Below are positions 7,149-41,612 of a DNA stretch of 41,612 bases, one piece after another. The stretch spans positions 1-41,612 of the forward strand of contig CAIMUP010000065.1 of assembly GCA_903844645.1 (NCBI GenBank), written 5' to 3'. The notes under the pieces were generated by a model. That model saw only the letters and a program-made list of their open reading frames with translations. It did no database searches and was not told the origin of the DNA. The first letter of the stretch is position 1, and each line of letters begins with the position of its first letter. The DNA comes from an uncultured Bacteroidota bacterium. GTDB taxonomy: Bacteria; Bacteroidota; Bacteroidia; AKYH767-A; JABDAW01. Made by a program: the position numbers and the translations under genes.

Positions 7149-7370
7149 TATTTCATTCCATGATCCCAATTCGACATCACATAATCCTTATTCAACATCA
7201 CATGAGCCTTATTCAACATCACATGAGCCTTATTCGACATCACATGAACCTTATTCAACATCACATGAACCTTATTCAACATCATATTTACCTTATTCAA
7301 CATCATATTTACCCAATTCAACATCACATCAACCCAAGTCAATAACATATTAACCCAAGTCAACATCACT
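7149..7370. repeat. 21-bp tandem array A1
   Basis: Nine units of exactly 21 bp start at 7170 and repeat without any indel to 7358, with a diverged unit before and a partial unit after. Each unit carries an ACATCAC or related core followed by a variable half (ATGAGCC, ATGAACC, ATTTACC, ATCAACC). The array lies in the divergent spacer between the kinase and the barrel-protein gene. Because 21 is a multiple of 3, several frames stay open across it, but none looks like a real protein. Confidence 0.95.
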
Positions 7371-7376
7371 GCGAGG

Positions 7377-7544
7377 CTTGGGAACATCACCGAAAGGCTT
7401 GGGAACATCACCGAAAGGCTTCGGAACACCACCGAAAGGCTTCGGAACATCACCGAAAGGCTTCGGAGCATCACCGAAAGGCTTCGGAACACCACCGAAA
7501 GGCTTCGGAGCATCACCGAAAGGCTTCGGAACACACATACTGGC
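7377..7544. repeat. 21-bp tandem array A2 (GC-rich)
   Basis: Eight units of exactly 21 bp run from 7377 to 7544. The junction of consecutive units forms CCGAAAGGCTTCGG, a dyad with CCGAA and TTCGG arms around AGGC. The ACATCAC core is shared with array A1 and stays in the same 21-bp register (7174 + 21n in A1, 7384 + 21n in A2), although the rest of the unit is unrelated. Units vary by single substitutions only (AACATC, AACACC, AGCATC). Confidence 0.95.
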
Positions 7545-8819: not shown

Positions 8820-9215
8820 ATGAATAAGATGAAAAGGACTCCTATTATTTTAATAACAGCTATTTACTTTCTCTCCATTTGCGGAGTGAGCGGCAGTAAC
8901 TTCTATTGCTGCGGGAAGTACAAGGAGAGCTATTTCTTCGCTCATCTGAATGCCGGAAAAGGTTGCATGGATGATAAAAACACCAAGGATTGCTGTGTTA
9001 CCAAAGTGTTTTTCGTGAAGGTTAAAGACACGCATTCGCCCTCCATTCAAATAAAAGGAATCATAGCCGATGTGTCCACTCTTTATTATCCCACTTTCTC
9101 TGAACTATTTAATAATAGTATCGCTAACGATGCACCATCATTAGCATTGCTCCATCCGCCCCCGTTGATTCGTAAGCAACCTGTTTACTTGGCTTACGGG
9201 GTTTTCCTTATCTGA
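8820..9215 (+). CDS. HYC_CC_PP family small secreted protein
   Basis: The protein has about 131 residues from ATG 8820, or 128 from ATG 8829. It has a signal segment (TPIILITAIYFLSICG) and the cysteine layout of the HYC_CC_PP family: FYCCGKY near the N-terminus, a CMDD and DCC cluster, and a PPPLIRKQP tail. Such proteins commonly sit just upstream of CusA-type efflux pumps in Bacteroidota, and here the gene precedes the C-terminal half of CusA by 93 bp. A periplasmic metal-related role is inferred from cysteines and context. The frame extends upstream to ATG 8784, but the promoter lies inside that extension. The usual HYC motif reads FYC here. Confidence 0.75.
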   Translation: MNKMKRTPIILITAIYFLSICGVSGSNFYCCGKYKESYFFAHLNAGKGCMDDKNTKDCCVTKVFFVKVKDTHSPSIQIKGIIADVSTLYYPTFSELFNNSIANDAPSLALLHPPPLIRKQPVYLAYGVFLI

Positions 9216-9308: not shown

Positions 9309-11207
9309 ATGAATAAAAAAGAACGGTTAAAGATAATTGAAAAGTCCTCTCGTCAAGTCGGACCAGGCGTGTTTTATTCCACAATAGTGGTTATCGCGTC
9401 GTTCCTTCCTGTCTTTCTTTTGACCGGAATGGAAGGGAAATTATTCCATCCCCTTGCTTGGACAAAAACATTTATCTTAATCATTGATGCCTTCCTCGCG
9501 ATAACACTCACACCTGTTTTAATCTCCTATTTAATGAAAGGAAAACTGAAACCAGAGAGTGCAAATCCCATTACTCGGACTTTAGAAAAGATATACACTC
9601 CGATAATAACATGGTGCTTGGTTTGGCGCAAAACAGTCCTTGGAATTAATCTTATAGCATTGATTGTAGGCGCACTCATGATGTTCCAGATGGGTACCGA
9701 ATTCATGCCTCCTTTGGATGAAGGTTCGATATTATTCATGCCCGTAACATTACCCGATGTCTCCAATTCCGAAGTAAAAAGAATCCTGCAAGTACAAGAT
9801 AAAATCATCAAATCAATTCCCGAAGTAAAGAATGTTTTAGGCAAAGCAGGGCGAGCAAATACCGCGACTGATAATTCTCCAATCTCCATGATTGAAACGA
9901 TCATCCTATTAAAACCAAAAACAGAATGGCGAGCAGGATTAACCAAAGAAGATATCATTAATGAATTGAATGCAAAGCTCCAGATCCCCGGTGTAGTCAA
10001 TGGTTTCACGCAACCCATCATCAATAGAATCAACATGCTTTCGACAGGAATAAGAACCGATGTCGGCTTGAAAGTATATGGACAAAACCTCGATACCATC
10101 TATGCGCTCGCCACAAGAATGAAGAATGAATTAGCAGGAATTGATGGCATAAAAGATCTCTATGTAGAACCAATTACCGGAGGTCGTTATGTAGATATCA
10201 CCATCAAGAAAGATGAAATCGGAAAGTATGGTTTAAGCGTTGATGATGTCAATATGTATATCGAAACCGCATTAGGTGGAATGAACCTCACGACCACGAT
10301 TGAAGGCAGAGAACGCTTCCCCGTCAATGCTCGGTTTGCCCAGGATTCACGCAATAGTCTCGATGCGATTCGGCAGATGCCAATCAAAACAATGAACTAC
10401 GGAAGCATCCCGCTTTCATCCGTTGCAGACGTTTCCATTTCCGAAGGACCACCGATGATTAATTCTGAAAATGCGATGCTACGCGGCACAGTTTTATTCA
10501 ACGTCCGCGACCGCGATTTAGGAAGCACGGTGAAAGAAGCACAAACAAAATTAAACAAATTATTCTCCAAATTACCACGTGGCTACAACCTCGAATGGAG
10601 CGGCCAGTGGGAGAATCAGCTCCGTGCCAACAAAACATTAATGATGATAGTACCCATCGTTCTCCTCATAATTTTCATGGTACTCTATTTCACATACAAG
10701 TCCTTAAAAGAAGCATTACTCACCATGATAACCGTCCCATTCGCCCTGATAGGCGGCATTTACATGGTCTATTTTTATGGAGTAAATCTTTCCGTTGCAG
10801 TTGCAGTTGGCTTCATCGCATTGTTCGGCGTAGCGGTCGAAACAGCCATGCTCATGATGATTTATCTCAACGAATTCATGGAGAAATTAATTACCGACAA
10901 AGGCAATTCATCCACCACCATCACCAAAGAAGATTTGCGCAAATACATCACCGATGGCGCCACCCAACGCCTCCGTCCAAAACTCATGACTGTCTCCGTC
11001 TCGCTCTTCGGTTTAATCCCCATTTTGTGGGCGACAGGTACGGGCAGCGACATCATGCTCCCCATCACAATCCCATTAATTGGTGGAGTTATTTCTTCTA
11101 CAATTTATGTTTTGCTCATCACCCCTGTGGTTTATGAAATCGTAAAAGAAAGAGAACTGAAGAAACATGGAAAACTAATTATGCCAGGTAAAAATGAAGA
11201 AGTATAG
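9309..11207 (+). CDS. cusA: CusA/CzcA-type RND metal efflux pump, C-terminal part only
   Basis: The 632 residues correspond to the C-terminal 60% of a CusA-type pump. They start with the cytoplasmic segment after TM4 (KKERLKIIEKSSRQVGP), followed by TM5 and TM6 (FLPVFLLTGMEGKLFHP), TM7, the second periplasmic domain (NRINMLSTGIRTDVG) and TM8-12 (PFALIGGIYMVYFYGV, GATQRLRPKLMTVSVS). The N-terminal 420 residues are absent here but are encoded at 15384-16652. The two pieces are complementary and share only KKE, so joining them gives about 1049 residues, the normal length. Start ATG 9309 has AT-rich sequence before it and no clear promoter of its own. The pump should export Cu(I)/Ag(I) from the periplasm with TolC and CusB; whether the two parts assemble is unknown. 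Confidence 0.9.
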   Translation: MNKKERLKIIEKSSRQVGPGVFYSTIVVIASFLPVFLLTGMEGKLFHPLAWTKTFILIIDAFLAITLTPVLISYLMKGKLKPESANPITRTLEKIYTPIITWCLVWRKTVLGINLIALIVGALMMFQMGTEFMPPLDEGSILFMPVTLPDVSNSEVKRILQVQDKIIKSIPEVKNVLGKAGRANTATDNSPISMIETIILLKPKTEWRAGLTKEDIINELNAKLQIPGVVNGFTQPIINRINMLSTGIRTDVGLKVYGQNLDTIYALATRMKNELAGIDGIKDLYVEPITGGRYVDITIKKDEIGKYGLSVDDVNMYIETALGGMNLTTTIEGRERFPVNARFAQDSRNSLDAIRQMPIKTMNYGSIPLSSVADVSISEGPPMINSENAMLRGTVLFNVRDRDLGSTVKEAQTKLNKLFSKLPRGYNLEWSGQWENQLRANKTLMMIVPIVLLIIFMVLYFTYKSLKEALLTMITVPFALIGGIYMVYFYGVNLSVAVAVGFIALFGVAVETAMLMMIYLNEFMEKLITDKGNSSTTITKEDLRKYITDGATQRLRPKLMTVSVSLFGLIPILWATGTGSDIMLPITIPLIGGVISSTIYVLLITPVVYEIVKERELKKHGKLIMPGKNEEV

Positions 11208-11424
11208 CATCATATTACTATTTCTTTCTCTTTTTGAAGATCGAAAGAGTCATTTATTAAGTTCCCTAAATCTTTTAGGGAGTTCCCTAAATCTTTTCGG
11301 GGGTCCCCTAAATCTTTTAGGGAGTTCCCTAAATCTTTTCGGGAGTTCCCCAAATCTTTTAGGGAGTCCCCTAAATCTTTTAGGGAGTTCCCTAAAATGC
11401 TTAAAATTCAGTTTATTAGATTAA
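11194..11424 (+). other. Open frame: signal-peptide-like start fused to the 21-bp array
   Basis: An ATG at 11194 overlaps the end of the CusA C-half by 14 bp, as neighbouring genes in this locus also do. It begins with a typical export signal start (MKKYSIILLFLSLF). After about 20 residues the frame runs into the 21-bp array and becomes heptads of the LGSSLNL type, ending at a stop at 11422-11424. It may be the 5' remnant of a gene (for example an original tolC) cut by the array, or a small expressed repeat protein. The overlap and the signal-like start argue against pure chance, but coding is not proven. Confidence 0.35.
11260..11406. repeat. 21-bp tandem array B with hairpin units
   Basis: Seven units of exactly 21 bp run from 11260 to 11406, and the last is partly diverged. 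Each contains CCCTAAATCTTTTAGGG, a 7-bp dyad around TCT; some units have TCGGG or CCCC variants in one arm. It fills the spacer between the CusA C-half and tolC, inside what should be one operon, so a hairpin array would lie in the mRNA. Confidence 0.95.
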
Positions 11425-11427
11425 ATT

Positions 11428-12660
11428 ATGAATAAATTGAATAGTTACCTAATCCTATTACTTATTCTTATTGGAGAATACGCTATTTCCTTAGGGCAAG
11501 TCCTTCCATTGGATTCCATTTTGAATCGAATCGAAAGAAACAATCCGATGCTCAAGATGTATGACGAACAAATTAACGCCGCAACTAACTTTTCAGAGAT
11601 CACAAAAAGCTGGATGCCTCCAAAGATTTCGACGGGTCCCTGGCAAGTGCCTTACAAAAATTTTAGTGATGGTATGTGGATGATTTCTGCCGAACAAATG
11701 ATTCCAAATCCAAAGAAACAAAAAGCGAATTATAATTATATGCTTGGGTTGACGCACATGGAATGGCATGAGAAGGCGGCGAAACGGAATGAATTATTTG
11801 CAGCGGCGAAGAAAAATTATTACGAATGGGTGGTATTGGAAATGAAGAGGGGTTTGATTCTTCAGACAGATTCCTTGTTGAATTATATCATTCAGGTGGG
11901 GCAAATTCGATATACTTACAACAAAGAAAAACTCAATACTATTTATAAAGCCCAAGCCGAATTGTATGAATTACGAAATATGGAAACGATGTTGCAGGGC
12001 GATGTGAAGATGAAACATGTGGAACTCAATACGCTGATGGATGTTGATAAAACTCTTGAATTTTCTGTTGATACGAATTTTATTTCTCGCAATTATGATT
12101 TGCAATTGCCTGATACGGCAGCCATTGCTGCATCACGGAGCGATATCAAACACTTCGATGCAAGTATTAATTCGATTAAACTTCAGCAAGAATATGAGCG
12201 ATCAAAACGGTTCCCTGACTATGGGATTTCAGTAAGTCACATGCAAGCACTTGGGGCGATGCCAAATTCGTTTGCTGCGATGGGAATGGTTACAATTCCG
12301 ATTGTACCCTGGGCTTCCAAAGAATATAAATCGAACATTAAAGGACTGGAAAATTCTGCCAATGCAATCAGTTATCAAAAGCAGTCACTCATCAACGAAA
12401 CCGCCGGTATGCTTGCCTCTCTGCAATATCAAATAAAAACTACGAAGCAACAATTGACAAATTATAAAGAGAATATTCTCCCGGCATATTATAAAAGTTA
12501 TCAGACTTCATTGATAGCTTATGAACAAAATACTGAAGATTTATTTATGGTATTAGATGGTTTGAAAATGTATCGAATGGCGAAGATAAATGAGTTGGAG
12601 CAATTGAACACACTCCTTAAATTACAAGTGGAATATGAAAAGGAATTGGAGATACGGTAG
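11428..12660 (+). CDS. TolC-family outer-membrane efflux protein
   Basis: The 410-residue protein has a signal peptide (residues 1-24, LILIGEYAISLGQ) and the TolC-type layout of two long helical hairpins. The helical regions include the segments at about residues 30-60, 100-210 and 290-405, rich in Glu, Lys and Gln with regular hydrophobic spacing. It would form the outer-membrane channel of the tripartite metal efflux system. The following adaptor gene overlaps its 3' end by 26 bp, which points to translational coupling. It is a little shorter than many CusC homologues and shows no lipobox. A second TolC-type gene lies at 39986. Confidence 0.85.
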   Translation: MNKLNSYLILLLILIGEYAISLGQVLPLDSILNRIERNNPMLKMYDEQINAATNFSEITKSWMPPKISTGPWQVPYKNFSDGMWMISAEQMIPNPKKQKANYNYMLGLTHMEWHEKAAKRNELFAAAKKNYYEWVVLEMKRGLILQTDSLLNYIIQVGQIRYTYNKEKLNTIYKAQAELYELRNMETMLQGDVKMKHVELNTLMDVDKTLEFSVDTNFISRNYDLQLPDTAAIAASRSDIKHFDASINSIKLQQEYERSKRFPDYGISVSHMQALGAMPNSFAAMGMVTIPIVPWASKEYKSNIKGLENSANAISYQKQSLINETAGMLASLQYQIKTTKQQLTNYKENILPAYYKSYQTSLIAYEQNTEDLFMVLDGLKMYRMAKINELEQLNTLLKLQVEYEKELEIR

Positions 12661-13864
12661 ACAATTGATTAGCAGGATTCGGCTTCTCTCTATTTGCATT
12701 TTGTTGTTGGTAAATCTTTCCTGTAACAGGGATGAACACAAGCATATTACGACATCAAAGACCATTGATTTGAGTGGCTTGGAACAACCGACCAATCAAG
12801 TTGTGTTCAGTGATTTGAAAACAATTTCGCTTGTTCAAAAAACGATTACTCTAGTCATTACTGCAACAGGTTTAATAACTTATGATCCACGATTAATGAA
12901 TACAATCAGTGCAAGATTCAGTGGACGAATTGAGAAGCTTTACGTTAGATTTAATTTTGAAAATGTTGTCAAGGGGCAACGAATAATGGATATCTATAGC
13001 TCCGAAATTGTTACTGCACAAGAGGACTTTATCTTTCTTTTGAATAACTCCTCAAGTGATATTTCATTGGTTAATTCATCAAAACAAAAACTGCATTTCC
13101 TTGGCTTATCAGATGAACAAATCAAACAAATTGAAACAAGCAAGAAGCCGATAAACCCGCTACCAATCTATAGTTCATATACCGGACATATTCACGATAT
13201 CGGTAGTGGTAGTAATGGAGTTAATTCAAGTATGAATAGTGGTGGAAGTTCAGACATGAATACTACATCAAAATCAAATACTCAAGAGCAAATTAAAGAT
13301 ATACCTTCATCTCAAAATTCTGCTTTAACAATCAAGGAAGGGATGTATGTTCAAAGTGGACAAGCAATCTTTGCAGTCTATAATACGAGCCGGGTTTGGG
13401 CGGTTTTGAATATTTATCCAAAGGATGCAGCAATGATAAAACTTGGTGATAAAGTTACCTTGAATGTTGAAACAAATTCCACAAATTCCATACAAGCAAG
13501 CATCAATGTTATTGAACCAGTTTCTGGTCAAAATACTTCTTCGATTAAAGCAAGAGTTTATATACAGAGCATAGAAGCTCACCATTTGAAAATAGGGACT
13601 CTTGTTACAGCAAAGATTGCATCAAAAGAAATTACCGGACAGTGGCTACCAAAATCATCGGTAGTGTCATTAGGGCAAAATAAAGTTGTGTTTCTTAAAA
13701 CCAATAACCATTTTATAAGTAAGGCAATCCATGCTGGAATGACCACTGATTCATTAGTGCAAATCATTGATGGTTTGCAATTCAATGATCAAGTTTCGTT
13801 GAATGCACAATTCCTTGTGGATAGCGAAAGTTTTATTCAAACTGATACCAATGAACAGAAATAA
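12635..13864 (+). CDS. cusB: CusB-type periplasmic adaptor (first of two), lipoprotein
   Basis: The 409-residue protein has an N-terminal lipoprotein signal (LLSICILLLVNLSC, Cys at about 30) and a membrane-fusion-protein architecture. The barrel-sandwich half motif is near residues 90-120 (ISARFSGRIEKLYV, QRIMDIYSSEIVTAQED), followed by a helical hairpin, a second lipoyl half (EGMYVQSGQAIFAVYN) and beta-barrel domains. A Ser/Asn/Gly-rich insertion of about 45 residues (190-235) interrupts the lipoyl domain. It lacks the N-terminal heavy-metal-binding domain found in the next adaptor. It overlaps tolC by 26 bp and the second cusB by 14 bp. It should link the inner-membrane pump to TolC. Confidence 0.85.
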   Translation: MKRNWRYGRQLISRIRLLSICILLLVNLSCNRDEHKHITTSKTIDLSGLEQPTNQVVFSDLKTISLVQKTITLVITATGLITYDPRLMNTISARFSGRIEKLYVRFNFENVVKGQRIMDIYSSEIVTAQEDFIFLLNNSSSDISLVNSSKQKLHFLGLSDEQIKQIETSKKPINPLPIYSSYTGHIHDIGSGSNGVNSSMNSGGSSDMNTTSKSNTQEQIKDIPSSQNSALTIKEGMYVQSGQAIFAVYNTSRVWAVLNIYPKDAAMIKLGDKVTLNVETNSTNSIQASINVIEPVSGQNTSSIKARVYIQSIEAHHLKIGTLVTAKIASKEITGQWLPKSSVVSLGQNKVVFLKTNNHFISKAIHAGMTTDSLVQIIDGLQFNDQVSLNAQFLVDSESFIQTDTNEQK

Positions 13865-15104
13865 GAATATCTTAAACCGTTTATTCATCATGCTAACAAT
13901 GCTGCTATTGCTGATGAATGCTTCATGTATAAAGAAAACTAATCATGCTGATATGGCGGGACCTGATGAGTATTATACTTGCTCCATGGACCCGCAAGTT
14001 ATTGAGAACAAAGCCGGCAACTGTCCTATATGCCACATGAAATTGATTAAAGTAAAAAGGAATAATCTCAAGCCTGGACAAATTCAATTGAGTGAACAGC
14101 AAATAAAATTAGCCAACATAACATTCGATACCTTGCGAATACATGAGCTATCAAAAGAAATTACTCTTACAGGGAAAGTTACATTTGATCAAAATCTTTC
14201 GGAGGCGATTAGCTCAAGAGTTCAAGGACGGATTGAAAAGTTGTTGGTGAAGAACGTAGGTGATTATATTAGCGAAGGACAATTGCTTTATGAAATATAT
14301 AGCGAGGATTTGAATGCTGCTCAATCCGAATATCTTTATGTAATTCAAAAATCAAATGCATCAGAAAGCTTTGCAACCGCAGCAAAGAAAAAGTTATTGC
14401 TTTATGGAATGAGCGAAGAGCAAATCAATAGAATCAAAACTTCAAAGCATATCATTGAGTACATCTCTGTCTATTCATCAGCGGAAGGATTTGTCACTGA
14501 AACCAGCGTGGTAGAAGGGAATTATGTATCATCGGGTATGACACTTTTTCGATTGGCTTCGATGAGTTCTTTATGGGTTGAGGCGCAGGTTTATCTCCCT
14601 TATCTACCCTATTTAAAGGTTGGAACGGAAGCTAAGTTTCACGTTGCTTCCGCAAGTGATGAAGCATATACTGGCAAGGTTATTTTCATTGATCCACAAG
14701 TGCAATCGCCTGAAAGATTTGTCTTGGCGAGGTTTCAAATCATCAATCCTTCTCAACAAATTAAACCTGGTATGCTCGCCAACATTGTTCTTCAAACGGA
14801 GAAACACAAATCGTTCACTCTGCCTGATGACGCTGTAATTATTGACAGTAAAGGAGCCAATGTTTGGGTGAGAAATAAAGATGTCGTATTTGAAAACAAA
14901 ATGGTAACAATCGGCATGCAAAACAGCACCAGCATTGAAATCCTTGATGGCTTATCAGATGGTTATGTTGTAGTTGTTTCGGGTGCTTATCTGCTCAATA
15001 GCGAGTATGTCTTTAAGCGTGGTGCCAGCCCTATGGAAGGTCATCAGGATATCTATCATGATATGCCAGGAATGAAAATAAAATCTCTAATAATTAATAA
15101 ATAG
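13851..15104 (+). CDS. cusB: CusB-type adaptor (second), with heavy-metal-binding domain
   Basis: The best start is ATG 13851, which overlaps the previous stop by 14 bp and gives a 417-residue lipoprotein (LLLLMNASC); the frame extends upstream, but only inside the preceding gene. A heavy-metal-binding domain follows the lipid anchor (YYTCSMDP, GNCPICHMKL), typical of Cu(I)/Ag(I) efflux adaptors. Next come the lipoyl halves (ISSRVQGRIEKLLVK, VVEGNYVSSGMTLFRLA), a helical hairpin (SEDLNAAQSEYLYVIQKS) and the beta-barrel and membrane-proximal domains. Two adaptors in tandem suggest a heteromeric hexamer, or functional division with only one able to bind metal. The next small gene starts 5 bp after the stop. 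Confidence 0.9.
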   Translation: MNRNKNILNRLFIMLTMLLLLMNASCIKKTNHADMAGPDEYYTCSMDPQVIENKAGNCPICHMKLIKVKRNNLKPGQIQLSEQQIKLANITFDTLRIHELSKEITLTGKVTFDQNLSEAISSRVQGRIEKLLVKNVGDYISEGQLLYEIYSEDLNAAQSEYLYVIQKSNASESFATAAKKKLLLYGMSEEQINRIKTSKHIIEYISVYSSAEGFVTETSVVEGNYVSSGMTLFRLASMSSLWVEAQVYLPYLPYLKVGTEAKFHVASASDEAYTGKVIFIDPQVQSPERFVLARFQIINPSQQIKPGMLANIVLQTEKHKSFTLPDDAVIIDSKGANVWVRNKDVVFENKMVTIGMQNSTSIEILDGLSDGYVVVVSGAYLLNSEYVFKRGASPMEGHQDIYHDMPGMKIKSLIINK

Positions 15105-15108
15105 AAGT

Positions 15109-15378
15109 ATGAAAAAAGTAATCATTTTATCAGCAGCAGCACTCATCATGATATTGAGTGGGCACAACAGTTCAGCGACCATAGTTGGTCCAATCAATGC
15201 CAGTGATTCCACTAAAAAGAAAACGGAAATCACTAAACAAATCTTCAACATGGATACCACGAAGTTGAAGAGCGGAGAGAAGTTTTAGCAATGTGAAATG
15301 GATCTCAAAGTTATTTCTATCAAGCCGGGTAAATGTCCTAAATGCGGCATGAAATTAACCGAGATTAAAAAGAAATAA
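15109..15378 (+). pseudogene. Small secreted heavy-metal-binding protein interrupted by an amber codon
   Basis: ATG 15109 opens a 90-codon frame with a signal peptide (KKVIILSAAALIMILSG) and a C-terminal heavy-metal-binding module (QCEMDLKVIS, PGKCPKCGMKLTEIKKK). Codon 60 (15286-15288) is TAG, at the place where such modules have Tyr (YxCxM). A single change from TAT or TAC explains it. Everything after the TAG stays in frame and well conserved to TAA 15376-15378, so the damage is recent, the codon is read through, or it is a sequencing error. ATG 15298 could start a 26-residue peptide that keeps the CPKCGM motif. The next gene begins 5 bp later. Confidence 0.8.
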
Positions 15379-15383
15379 ACAAC

Positions 15384-16652
15384 ATGGTCGAGCGACTCAT
15401 CTCATTCTCGTTACGCAATCGCCTGCTGGTGCTGCTCCTTGCTGCATGTATGTTTGGTTGGGGCATTTACGAAGTCAGGCATAATTCCATTGATGCCATC
15501 CCCGATTTATCCGAGAACCAGGTGATTGTTTTTACGGAGTGGATGGGTCGCAGTCCGCAGGTGATTGAAGACCAGGTTACTTACCCGCTCGTTGCGAATC
15601 TTCAGGGCATTCCGAAGTTGAAAAACATTCGCGGTTCGTCTATGTTCGGAATGAGTTTTGTTTATCTTGTCTTCGAAGATAATGCGGACATCTATTGGGC
15701 AAGGACGCGGGTTTCGGAGCGATTGAACTTTGCACAGAAGCTGCTGCCCGAAGGCATTTCTCCGACCATCGGTCCTGATGGAACCGGTGTCGGACACATC
15801 TTTTGGTACACTTTGGATGCTAAAGGATATGACCTTGGCGAGCAGCGTGCTTTGCAGGATTGGTATATTAAATTTGCCTTGCAAACATTGCCCGGAGTGA
15901 GCGAAGTCGCATCTTTCGGTGGCTTCCAAAAGCAATATCAGATCATCATTGATCCCATTAAACTGACCTTCTATAATCTCTCGATGATGGATGTTTTGAA
16001 GTCCGTTGAATCCAACAACAATGATGTCGGTGGAAGGAAATTCGAGATGAGTGATAAGTCCTACATCGTCCGTGGATTGGGCTATATCAAGTCAATCAGC
16101 GAGATCGAAAACATCTCAATCAGCACATCAAACAATACACCGATAAGGATAAAAGACATCGGCTCTGTGCAGATGGGCGGCGACATTCGTTACGGTATCT
16201 TTGATGAAAACGGAGAAGGCGAAAAGGTCGGTGGCATCATCGTTATGCGATATAATGAAAACGCCGATGCAGTAATAAAGAGCATCAAAACAAAGGTGGC
16301 TGAAGTACAGAAAGGATTGCCCGAAGGCGTGAAATTCCAATTGGCATACGACCGCAGCGAACTCATCGAAGAAGCCATCAGTTCGGTCAAAAGAACGCTC
16401 CTCGAAGTCTTCATCAGCGTTTCGATCATCGTCCTGATTTTCCTTTTTCATTGGCGCAGCGCGCTTATCATTCTCATCCAAATCCCTATTTCGGTCGCCT
16501 CCAGTTTCATCTTTCTAAATGCCTTGGGATTCTCGTCCAACATTATGTCATTAACGGGCATCGCACTGGCTATTGGAGTGATCGTAGATGACGGCATCGT
16601 GATAGTTGAGAATGCTTACCGGCATTTAAGCGAAGCGCAAAAGAAAGAATAG
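15384..16652 (+). CDS. cusA: CusA/CzcA-type RND metal efflux pump, N-terminal part only
   Basis: These 422 residues match the first 40% of a CusA-type pump. TM1 is at about 12-32, the first periplasmic pore domain runs to about 335 (DAIPDLSENQVIV, SSMFGMSFVYLVFEDN, DGTGVGHIFWY), and TM2-TM4 follow. TM4 carries the proton-relay acids (D402, D403 and E409 in VDDGIVIVENAY). The protein stops in the cytoplasmic loop before TM5 (SEAQKKE, then TAG). The missing part is the gene at 9309-11207, which begins with KKERLKII, so the break point is shared. Coding quality looks intact, with no frameshift. It is the last gene of the locus and starts 5 bp after the interrupted metal-binding gene. It is either an independently expressed half-transporter or one product of a rearrangement. 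Confidence 0.9.
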   Translation: MVERLISFSLRNRLLVLLLAACMFGWGIYEVRHNSIDAIPDLSENQVIVFTEWMGRSPQVIEDQVTYPLVANLQGIPKLKNIRGSSMFGMSFVYLVFEDNADIYWARTRVSERLNFAQKLLPEGISPTIGPDGTGVGHIFWYTLDAKGYDLGEQRALQDWYIKFALQTLPGVSEVASFGGFQKQYQIIIDPIKLTFYNLSMMDVLKSVESNNNDVGGRKFEMSDKSYIVRGLGYIKSISEIENISISTSNNTPIRIKDIGSVQMGGDIRYGIFDENGEGEKVGGIIVMRYNENADAVIKSIKTKVAEVQKGLPEGVKFQLAYDRSELIEEAISSVKRTLLEVFISVSIIVLIFLFHWRSALIILIQIPISVASSFIFLNALGFSSNIMSLTGIALAIGVIVDDGIVIVENAYRHLSEAQKKE

Positions 16653-16904: not shown

Positions 16905-17030
16905 GAGAATCATCGCAGTGTCATCGAGAATCATCGCTGTGTCGCCGAGAATCATCGCAGTGGCACTGAAAATCGTTGCAGCGACACCGAAAATCATTGC
17001 AGTCGCGTCTTTATTGCTTGCAGTCACATC
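16905..17030. repeat. 21-bp tandem array C
   Basis: Six units of exactly 21 bp start at 16905 and share the core GAGAATCATCGCAGTG or close variants; the last, at 17010-17030, is decayed but still in register (TTGCAGTCACATC). It lies between convergent genes. No strong dyad is seen in this unit. Confidence 0.9.
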
Positions 17031-19514: not shown

Positions 19515-19638
19515 AGCAATTTTCAGGACATAATAGTGACATATATTATAAAATAAGACCTCAATCCTATTTTATGGGTCATCAATTCATCGTTCTATAT
19601 TTCAGCCAATTTCTTTTTTCTTGTAAATTACGTTCGTC

Positions 19639-19806
19639 AAAATGTTTCAGACTGTAGTCAAAATGGTCTTGACCGTAGTCAAAATGTTTCTGACTGTAGT
19701 TAAAATGGTTTTGACTGTAGTTAAAATGGTTTTGACTGTAGTCAAAATGTTTCTGACTGTAATCAAAATGGTTTTGACCGTAGGCAAAATGATTTTGACG
19801 AAGGTC
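19639..19806. repeat. 21-bp tandem array D with strong dyad
   Basis: Eight units of exactly 21 bp end 2 bp before the complement of the M1 aminopeptidase stop codon (19809-19811). The unit junction contains AGTCAAAATGGTTTTGACT, an 8-bp dyad around TGG, and also GACTGTAGTC. Variants alternate between ATGGTTTTG and ATGTTTCTG. The array lies in the 3' flank of the aminopeptidase gene and continues, decayed, for about one unit upstream of 19639. The remaining spacer to 19463 shows only the promoter. Confidence 0.95.
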
Positions 19807-22296: not shown

Positions 22297-22388
22297 GTTA
22301 TTAATAAATCACTGCCGCGGCATTTAAGAGAATATTAACCAAAAACAGAGATTCCGCAGGTTTTCGCGTTTCTGACCAATTTCAAAGT

Positions 22389-22682
22389 GACGATTGCTCC
22401 ATTGTTGGAACAATTGCCCAAATTCAAGGTGACGATTGCTCCATTGTTGGAACAATTGCCCAAATTCAAGGTGACAATTGCTCCATTGTTGGAACAATTG
22501 CCCAAATTCAAGGTGACGATTGCCCTATTGTTGGAACATTTGCCGAATCTTAAGGTGACGATTGCCCTATTGTTGGAACATTTGCCCAATCTCAAGGTGA
22601 CGATTGCTCCATTGTTGGAACTTTTGCCCAATCGTCACCTTAAGTCTGCTCCATTGTTGGAATTTTTGCCCAATCGTCACCT
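22389..22682. repeat. 42-bp tandem array E (two 21-bp halves), with an internal flip
   Basis: Seven units of exactly 42 bp run from 22389 to 22682. The two halves share an ACGATTGCTCC or ACAATTGCCCA core, so the unit is a dimer of about 21 bp. TTGCTCCATTGTTGGAACAA is an 8-bp dyad with one mismatch. In the last two units the segment between CAATC and GATTG appears as its reverse complement (GTCACCTTAA instead of TTAAGGTGAC), without change of register. The array lies immediately downstream of the flippase gene. Confidence 0.95.
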
Positions 22683-28149: not shown

Positions 28150-28217
28150 GGATTCTTTGGGATAATAGGTTTCTCGGAATTCCAATTCATTGATTTATTC
28201 ACCAAAAAGCATTAGAA

Positions 28218-28458
28218 ATGGTACGCAATTGTGTACCGTTCCAAAGTGCAACATTTGGAATGGTACGCGTTGGTGTACTGCTCCAAATGTTGACATTTGG
28301 TATGGTACGCGTTGGTGTACTACTCCAAATGTTGACATTTGGTATGGTACGCGTTGGTGTACTACTCCAAATGTTGACATTTGGAATGGTACGCGTTGGT
28401 GTACTGCCCCAAATGTTGACATTTGGTATGGTACGCACTTGTGTACTGCTCCAAAGGA
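28218..28458. repeat. 42-bp tandem array F (two alternating dyads of 21 bp)
   Basis: Five full units of 42 bp start at 28218, 28260, 28302, 28344 and 28386, with a partial sixth to 28458. One half carries GTACGCGTTGGTGTAC (GTAC arms) and the other CCAAATGTTGACATTTGG, a 7-bp dyad around TTGA. It lies in the divergent spacer between the Rpe-CBS operon and hppD, between the two promoters. The rest of the spacer holds only the promoter boxes. Confidence 0.95.
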
Positions 28459-32958: not shown

Positions 32959-33125
32959 CTGTACAAAGGGACTTTTATTCTACCAGAGGGGGAGTTTATT
33001 CTACGAGAGAGGAGTTTTATCTTGCCAGAGGGGGAGTTTATTCTACCTGAGGGGTAGATTATTCTACCTGAGGGGAGTTTATCTTGCCAGAGGTGGAGAT
33101 TATGCTACCAGAGGTCGAGTTTATC
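32959..33125. repeat. 21-bp tandem array G
   Basis: About eight units, seven of 21 bp and one of 20 bp (33064-33083), share CTACCAGAGGGGGAG and a TTTATT or TTTATC end. One unit forms CTACCTGAGGGGTAG (5-bp arms). It lies between the convergent priA and lptE genes. This is the only array here with a visible indel. Confidence 0.9.
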
Positions 33126-33272
33126 GTACCTTTTCGAGAATGTGGGTTTTTAGTTAAAATTTTTAACCTCCCCAAAAAGGTTTTTAGCGACAGATTCACT
33201 GATTAAAAAAAATTTCACAGAGGGAAAAAGGAGATTCACAGAGGGGGTTGGGATTGCAAATCCTGACCAGCC

Positions 33273-37698: not shown

Positions 37699-37887
37699 CC
37701 CCAAACCGACCTCTGCTTCAAAGTTTATGACCCCTGCTGCAAGGTTTGCCTTATCTACTGCAAAGTTTCTGGAATCTGCTGCAAAGTTAATGACATTTGC
37801 TTAAAAGTTTTTGACATTTGCTTAAAAGTTTTTGGCATTTACATAAAAGTTTTTGGCATTTGCATAAAAGTTTCAGGTTTCTGCTTC
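37699..37887. repeat. 21-bp tandem array H
   Basis: Nine units of exactly 21 bp run from 37699 to 37887. They share AAAGTTT at the start and TGC near the end; units change gradually from CCCCTGCTGC-type to GACATTTGCTTA-type ends. It lies in the divergent spacer between miaB and rpmB. The part at 37888-38031 shows no further feature, and the rpmB promoter follows. Confidence 0.92.
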
Positions 37888-41349: not shown

Positions 41350-41612
41350 TATAGCCTTCTCAATAGAAAAAGTAACCCTAACGATAGAAAAAGTAGTTTT
41401 CGCATACGTGAAAGTAGTTCAAACATATGTTTTAGTAGTACAAACATATGTTATTGTTGTACAAACATATGTTTTAGTAACAATAAGATATCTTTTAGTA
41501 ACAATAAGATATCTTTTAGTAACAATAAGATATCTTTTAGTAACAATAAGATATCTTTTAGTAACAAAAAGATATCTTTTAGCAACAAAAAGATACCTTT
41601 TAGTAACAATAA
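41350..41612. repeat. 21-bp tandem array I with changing palindromic core (continues past the window)
   Basis: Twelve units of exactly 21 bp run from 41350 to 41601, and a partial unit reaches the window end. Most start AGTA. The core changes along the array: irregular, then AACATATGTT (three units), then AAGATATCTT (five units), then AAGATACCTT. The register is never lost. The first 95 bp of the spacer (41255-41349) show no feature. Confidence 0.96.

Follow-up and report, generated by a model that had tools for sequence, protein, structure and literature searches.

A CusA-type metal efflux pump encoded as two separate genes in a clade of Bacteroidota

Pumps of the resistance-nodulation-division (RND) superfamily are, in textbook form, single-chain protomers of 12 transmembrane (TM) segments. 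The DNA analysed here (the window) comprises 41,612 nucleotides (nt), positions 1-41,612 of contig CAIMUP010000065.1 of assembly GCA_903844645.1, read on the forward strand, from an uncultured Bacteroidota bacterium (GTDB lineage Bacteroidia; AKYH767-A; JABDAW01), and in it a pump resembling Escherichia coli CusA is divided between two genes, with the C-terminal part upstream of the N-terminal part and four other genes between them. Is this a single gene that was broken or wrongly assembled, or is the pump made from two chains? Judging from sequence comparison, the locus very probably encodes a CusA-type heavy-metal efflux (HME) RND pump in which two polypeptides permanently make up the inner-membrane protomer, the division falling in the cytoplasmic TM4-TM5 loop. 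It is also likely that the window represents a phylum-wide RND clade that is obligately two-chain and split within the first 6-TM repeat, in which adjacency and order of the two genes are dispensable and from which about three one-piece genes arose by re-fusion.

The two pump genes of the window

The two genes, referred to below as the C-half and the N-half, are:
9309..11207, + strand: C-half of the split CusA pump (632 amino acids, aa), with TM5-TM12, the second porter domain and the Met triad; Pfam ACR_tran positions 417-1020
15384..16652, + strand: N-half of the split CusA pump (422 aa), with TM1-TM4, the first porter domain and the proton-relay Asp; Pfam ACR_tran positions 2-418 of 1021

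Each half is an intact gene with its own start and stop. The N-half aligned end to end with residues 1-422 of E. coli CusA (approximately 43% identity) and the C-half aligned end to end with residues 431-1038, and only the short TM4-TM5 loop of CusA is left uncovered; the break point falls in this loop, after the TM4 Asp and before TM5. A preliminary description of the window had proposed two intact, complementary CusA halves broken within a cytoplasmic loop, and both points are borne out. Its suggestion that a shared KKE at the end of one half and the start of the other marks the junction was not upheld, as relatives with the same split end otherwise (QLKEDSK, AEIEK, FQSEE).

Set against the features of an HME-RND pump, the window departs from the single-chain 12-TM protomer in having two non-adjacent genes, of 422 and 632 aa. 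The proton-relay residues are present (D402 in the N-half, E511 and K558 in the C-half), as are the Met triad of the Cu(I)/Ag(I) type (M144, M194 and M243 of the C-half) and the tripartite partners, with an OEP channel gene and two HlyD_D23 adaptor genes in the operon. The functions of the corresponding CusA residues, D405, the Met triad M573/M623/M672, E939 and K984, are established. Among the split loci described below, the D405 position (the TM4 Asp) was conserved in 82/82, the triad was kept in every split sequence covering the site, and the E939 and K984 equivalents, both in the C-half, were conserved in most. The catalytic Asp thus lies in the N-half and the Met triad in the C-half, and therefore neither half should work alone.

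Scored with the HME-RND profile TIGR00914 (1051 positions), the N-half reached 473.5 bits over positions 1-427 and the C-half 617.5 bits over positions 432-1043, both below the curated cut-off of 701.45; a natural fused relative (L106) scored 1071.6. Because neither half reaches the cut-off, metal-resistance surveys relying on this model would miss the split clade. The RefSeq name for both halves is nonetheless 'efflux RND transporter permease subunit'.

Occurrence, independence and ancestry of the two genes

The N-half was searched against 84,980 species genomes, the best 80 loci were kept, and both halves were mapped in each; the resulting 82-locus set includes the window, two plasmids and regions from other genomes. 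N and C were separate genes in these 82 loci, in tandem (N then C) in 73 and in permuted order in nine, the window among them. Five further loci carried N only, all on short or truncated contigs; L044, for instance, starts inside tolC, and C would lie upstream. Cultured carriers include Cytophaga aurantiaca, Flavihumibacter, Lacibacter luteus, Segetibacter koreensis and Sediminibacterium magnilacihabitans, and the complete plasmids pRUNSL02 of Runella slithyformis and pHALHY01 of Haliscomenobacter hydrossis hold the split pair, annotated in RefSeq as two adjacent permease-subunit genes. When 395 Bacteroidota genomes were scanned, matches of at least 60% identity all had an open frame of 425-475 aa, and those below 60% had frames of 1031-1177 aa (one of 1777 aa) with few exceptions, namely divergent split copies (G010, 59%; G256, 57%), a contig-edge copy (G231) and a few shorter draft-genome frames of 797-1023 aa. 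The number of N genes equalled the number of C genes in 24/24 split-family genomes; two of these genomes have three N and three C genes, and another has two and two. One locus (L094, 10001-19335) holds two successive N-C pairs, and on the Haliscomenobacter plasmid (L123) a fused pump operon immediately precedes the split operon.

With the same split at 81 other loci, far more than chance would give, the division of the gene is older and family-wide, not a local event that came together with the permutation, as the preliminary description had treated it. That description had also considered an assembly error, by which a contiguous cusA would have been cut and misjoined. The draft genome, in 143 contigs and rich in repeat arrays, would favour such an error, but the permuted order recurs, with proteins 86-89% identical, in the independent assemblies of L042, L043, L045-L047 and L049, and again in L050 and L125, and the split also occurs in the isolates Segetibacter and Cytophaga and in the complete plasmids pRUNSL02 (Runella) and pHALHY01 (Haliscomenobacter). 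Misassembly is accordingly ruled out as the origin, its probability being negligible.

Selection was measured as pN/pS (nonsynonymous over synonymous differences per site) instead of dN/dS, because dS was saturated. In the permuted clade the mean pN/pS was approximately 0.10 for each half, which indicates strong purifying selection on both; comparisons with the window gave a pS of 0.8-0.9. The idea that they are remnants of a broken cusA could draw on a nonsense codon in the adjoining HMBD (heavy-metal-binding domain) gene, but it is barely credible in view of the full open frames, the invariant catalytic residues, the low pN/pS over saturated synonymous divergence and the persistence of the split state through a phylum-wide clade. 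Decay of one half in relatives, which would have spoken for such a loss, was not seen: both halves are conserved, selected and present in equal counts.

At the 73 tandem junctions, C lies in relative frame 0, 1 or 2 with respect to N in 10, 11 and 52 cases, respectively, and the C genes have start codons of their own. Spacing ranges from overlaps (21 junctions, mostly of 4 nt) through a median gap of 2 nt to eight gaps of more than 100 nt. In Segetibacter koreensis (L091, 11296-14058) a complete gene for a 920-aa P-type cation ATPase stands between the halves, with a 4-nt overlap at the N stop. N and C are separate genes and not one gene read across two frames. Production of a single chain by programmed frameshifting, stop read-through or protein ligation would fit the close spacing of most tandem pairs, which overlap by 4 nt or sit 2 nt apart; against it, frame and spacing vary freely, with gaps of up to 2.7 kb that contain another gene, C is upstream of N throughout the permuted clade, and the tails at the break, a few residues in length, leave no space for an intein. 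We regard it as very improbable. Many tandem loci have the C leader M-x-WFKRNKDPLT in common, and the new N-terminus of the C-half carries several Lys/Arg residues, in agreement with the positive-inside rule.

Trees were built with FastTree from the concatenated N and C sequences of 97 loci (1052 columns) and with IQ-TREE under a mixture model (53 rows); a mixed alignment of fused and half sequences was discarded, as the internal RND repeat had placed C-halves on N. In both trees the split loci fall into a single clade distinct from the fused outgroups, and within it the permuted loci form one clade (support 1.00 in FastTree and 100 in IQ-TREE) that needs a single change of order; this permuted clade also appears in each of the separate N and C trees (0.995 and 1.0). 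L083, L099 and L106, three one-piece genes that are each a single open frame, are nested at separate places in the split clade. The fused/split label needs four changes on the tree, and placing all fused genes in one group was rejected by the approximately unbiased (AU) test (p 4.6e-5).

Given fused outgroups, the shortest history would be one fission, in the ancestor of the Bacteroidota clade, followed by three re-fusions, which would most simply account for the one-piece genes regained in three lineages. Repeated independent fissions, a rival for the history and not for the mechanism, are unlikely. Parsimony counts alone do not fix the direction of change, and the three one-piece genes each have a single open frame, as repeated fission would have it; but one fission with three fusions is the shortest history, at four changes, and the C leader shared by many tandem loci points to a common split ancestor. 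Horizontal transfer of the locus is likely, because neither of the two congeners searched has it (best match 37% identity) and permuted copies (G195, G211) occur in genomes assigned outside the class of the window. A search restricted to congeners and family returned a single orthologue, an N copy at a contig edge in a different genus.

Proposed two-chain protomer and known pumps

In the proposed mechanism, the N-chain would span the membrane four times with both ends cytoplasmic and supply the first porter domain and the TM4 relay Asp, and the C-chain would span it eight times, again with both ends cytoplasmic, and supply the second porter domain, the Cu(I)/Ag(I) Met triad and the relay partners in TM10 and TM11. 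Lying on the cytoplasmic side, the break would leave each chain able to insert with normal topology. The two would fold into one CusA-like unit, three units would form the trimer, and the trimer would export copper or silver with the CusB adaptors and TolC, driven by the proton gradient. Two-chain assembly, called conceivable in the preliminary description, is judged plausible; we infer assembly in trans, substrate and transport from sequence. The halves might instead act separately, one possibility being that they modulate the ordinary fused pump, a homologue of which is encoded in the same genome (contig C88, 1469-4516). That homologue is only 34-36% identical, however, N and C counts are equal and their trees agree, each half carries a different indispensable part of one mechanism, and the one-piece forms that occur naturally inside the clade speak for a joint unit, so that separate action is improbable.

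Two observations weigh against the two-chain pump as proposed. The small HMBD gene of the window carries an in-frame TAG at codon 60 (15286-15288), absent from every relative whose copy spans that codon; this may be damage or a sequencing error, and a broken HMBD gene may mean some weakening of the operon in the window. Among approximately 80 split sequences (L042-L143), the K984 position is V, F or L in eight and E939 is replaced by Q in four, and part of the split family may thus have an altered proton relay. AlphaFold models of each half alone, made from 25-row alignments, were of low confidence (predicted local distance difference test scores of 61.3 and 63.9); Foldseek matched these low-confidence models best to CusA, at a root-mean-square deviation of 13-18 A, and the models speak neither for nor against assembly and were not used as evidence.

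The window pump and E. coli CusA (CusCFBA) are alike in fold by sequence, in the TM4 Asp, M573/M623/M672, E939 and K984, and in their CusB-like and TolC-like partners. E. coli CusA is one chain, whereas the window has two pump genes and two adaptor genes, without a linked CusF. The nearest outgroup, fused CusA-like pumps of Bacteroidota (e.g., L130-L138), shows 52-59% identity over N and has the same kinds of partner genes, but in single frames of approximately 1050-1140 aa, unlike the split pair. SecD/SecF, an RND-superfamily protein encoded in some cases by two genes and in others by a single fused gene, is the closest known two-gene case, but is divided between the two 6-TM repeats, whereas the window break lies inside the first repeat; weak SecF/SecDF matches were returned by the profile search. 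The RND pump MdtBC also requires two gene products, but MdtB and MdtC are two complete paralogues and the window halves are parts of one protomer. No report of split, two-gene or fission RND/CusA pumps was found in the open-access literature searched, an absence that is weak evidence. If true, a stable two-chain RND form broken within a repeat would make pump insertion and assembly directly testable, and the tandem, permuted and one-piece forms would be a matched natural series for comparing membrane-protein assembly.

Operon neighbours, gene order and host repeat arrays

The other genes of the operon are:
8820..9215, + strand: gene for a small Cys-rich secreted protein, first of the operon; relatives by tblastn
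11428..12660, + strand: TolC-family outer-membrane channel; Pfam OEP, 1.1e-15
12635..13864, + strand: CusB-type periplasmic adaptor 1; Pfam HlyD_D23, 1.9e-43
13803..15104 (listed open reading frame, ORF; start provisional), + strand: CusB-type periplasmic adaptor 2 with an N-terminal heavy-metal-binding domain; Pfam HlyD_D23, 3.2e-61, and HMBD, 1.6e-9
15109..15378, + strand: gene for a small HMBD metal-binding protein, with the in-frame TAG; relatives intact

The tolC gene, the two CusB-type adaptor genes and the HMBD gene are those that separate the C-half from the N-half. No Pfam or NCBIfam family matched the Cys-rich protein; tblastn placed its relatives just upstream of C in permuted loci L042 and L047, and in many tandem loci upstream of N.

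The order C-tolC-cusB1-cusB2-HMBD-N of the window is also that of eight other assemblies. Tandem loci such as L077 run Cys-rich gene, HMBD, N, C, tolC, cusB1, cusB2, and the permuted clade runs Cys-rich gene, C, tolC, cusB1, cusB2, HMBD, N, from which it follows that HMBD and N travelled as one block from the front of the operon to the far end, leaving the first gene in place. The permutation is a single later event, distinct from the older split: one relocation of the block took place in the subclade of the window. The exact permuted order would most simply arise if the operon was duplicated in tandem and the two copies then underwent complementary losses. The preliminary description had offered translocation of the N-part or integration of a circularised operon; relocation stands, with the HMBD-N pair and not N alone as the unit moved, and a circularised operon is unnecessary because the upstream Cys-rich gene kept its front position. 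Short repeats were considered as a cause of the rearrangement, and no convincing repeat was present at the breakpoints. Arrays of 21-bp repeats were likewise rejected as a cause, being a feature of the host genus and rare in other Bacteroidota loci, including permuted ones. One such array lies within the operon:
11260..11396, no strand: tandem array of 21-bp period between the C-half and tolC, a genus-wide host feature and not part of the pump

Arrays of 21-bp period (or 42/63) in the window are at 7169-7533, 11260-11396, 16905-17003, 19636-19799, 22376-22675, 28210-28455, 32974-33131, 37708-37873 and 41413-41612, and others are in L144-L149. In approximately 100 kb of the genome, 35 Tandem Repeats Finder (TRF) rows had period 21, covering 5% of bases, with units mostly unrelated in sequence; 12% of array bases lay in long ORFs, against 82% expected. 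Similar arrays were present in two congeners, and only four in 283 kb from other Bacteroidota. A length of 21 bp corresponds to two helical turns, and a literature search for such arrays found nothing. The array at the window end (41467-41612) shares its 21-bp unit with positions 1-201 of contig C88 (L146), and the two contigs may be adjacent in the genome; positions 425-4516 of C88 hold a CusB-like gene and the ordinary fused CusA homologue.

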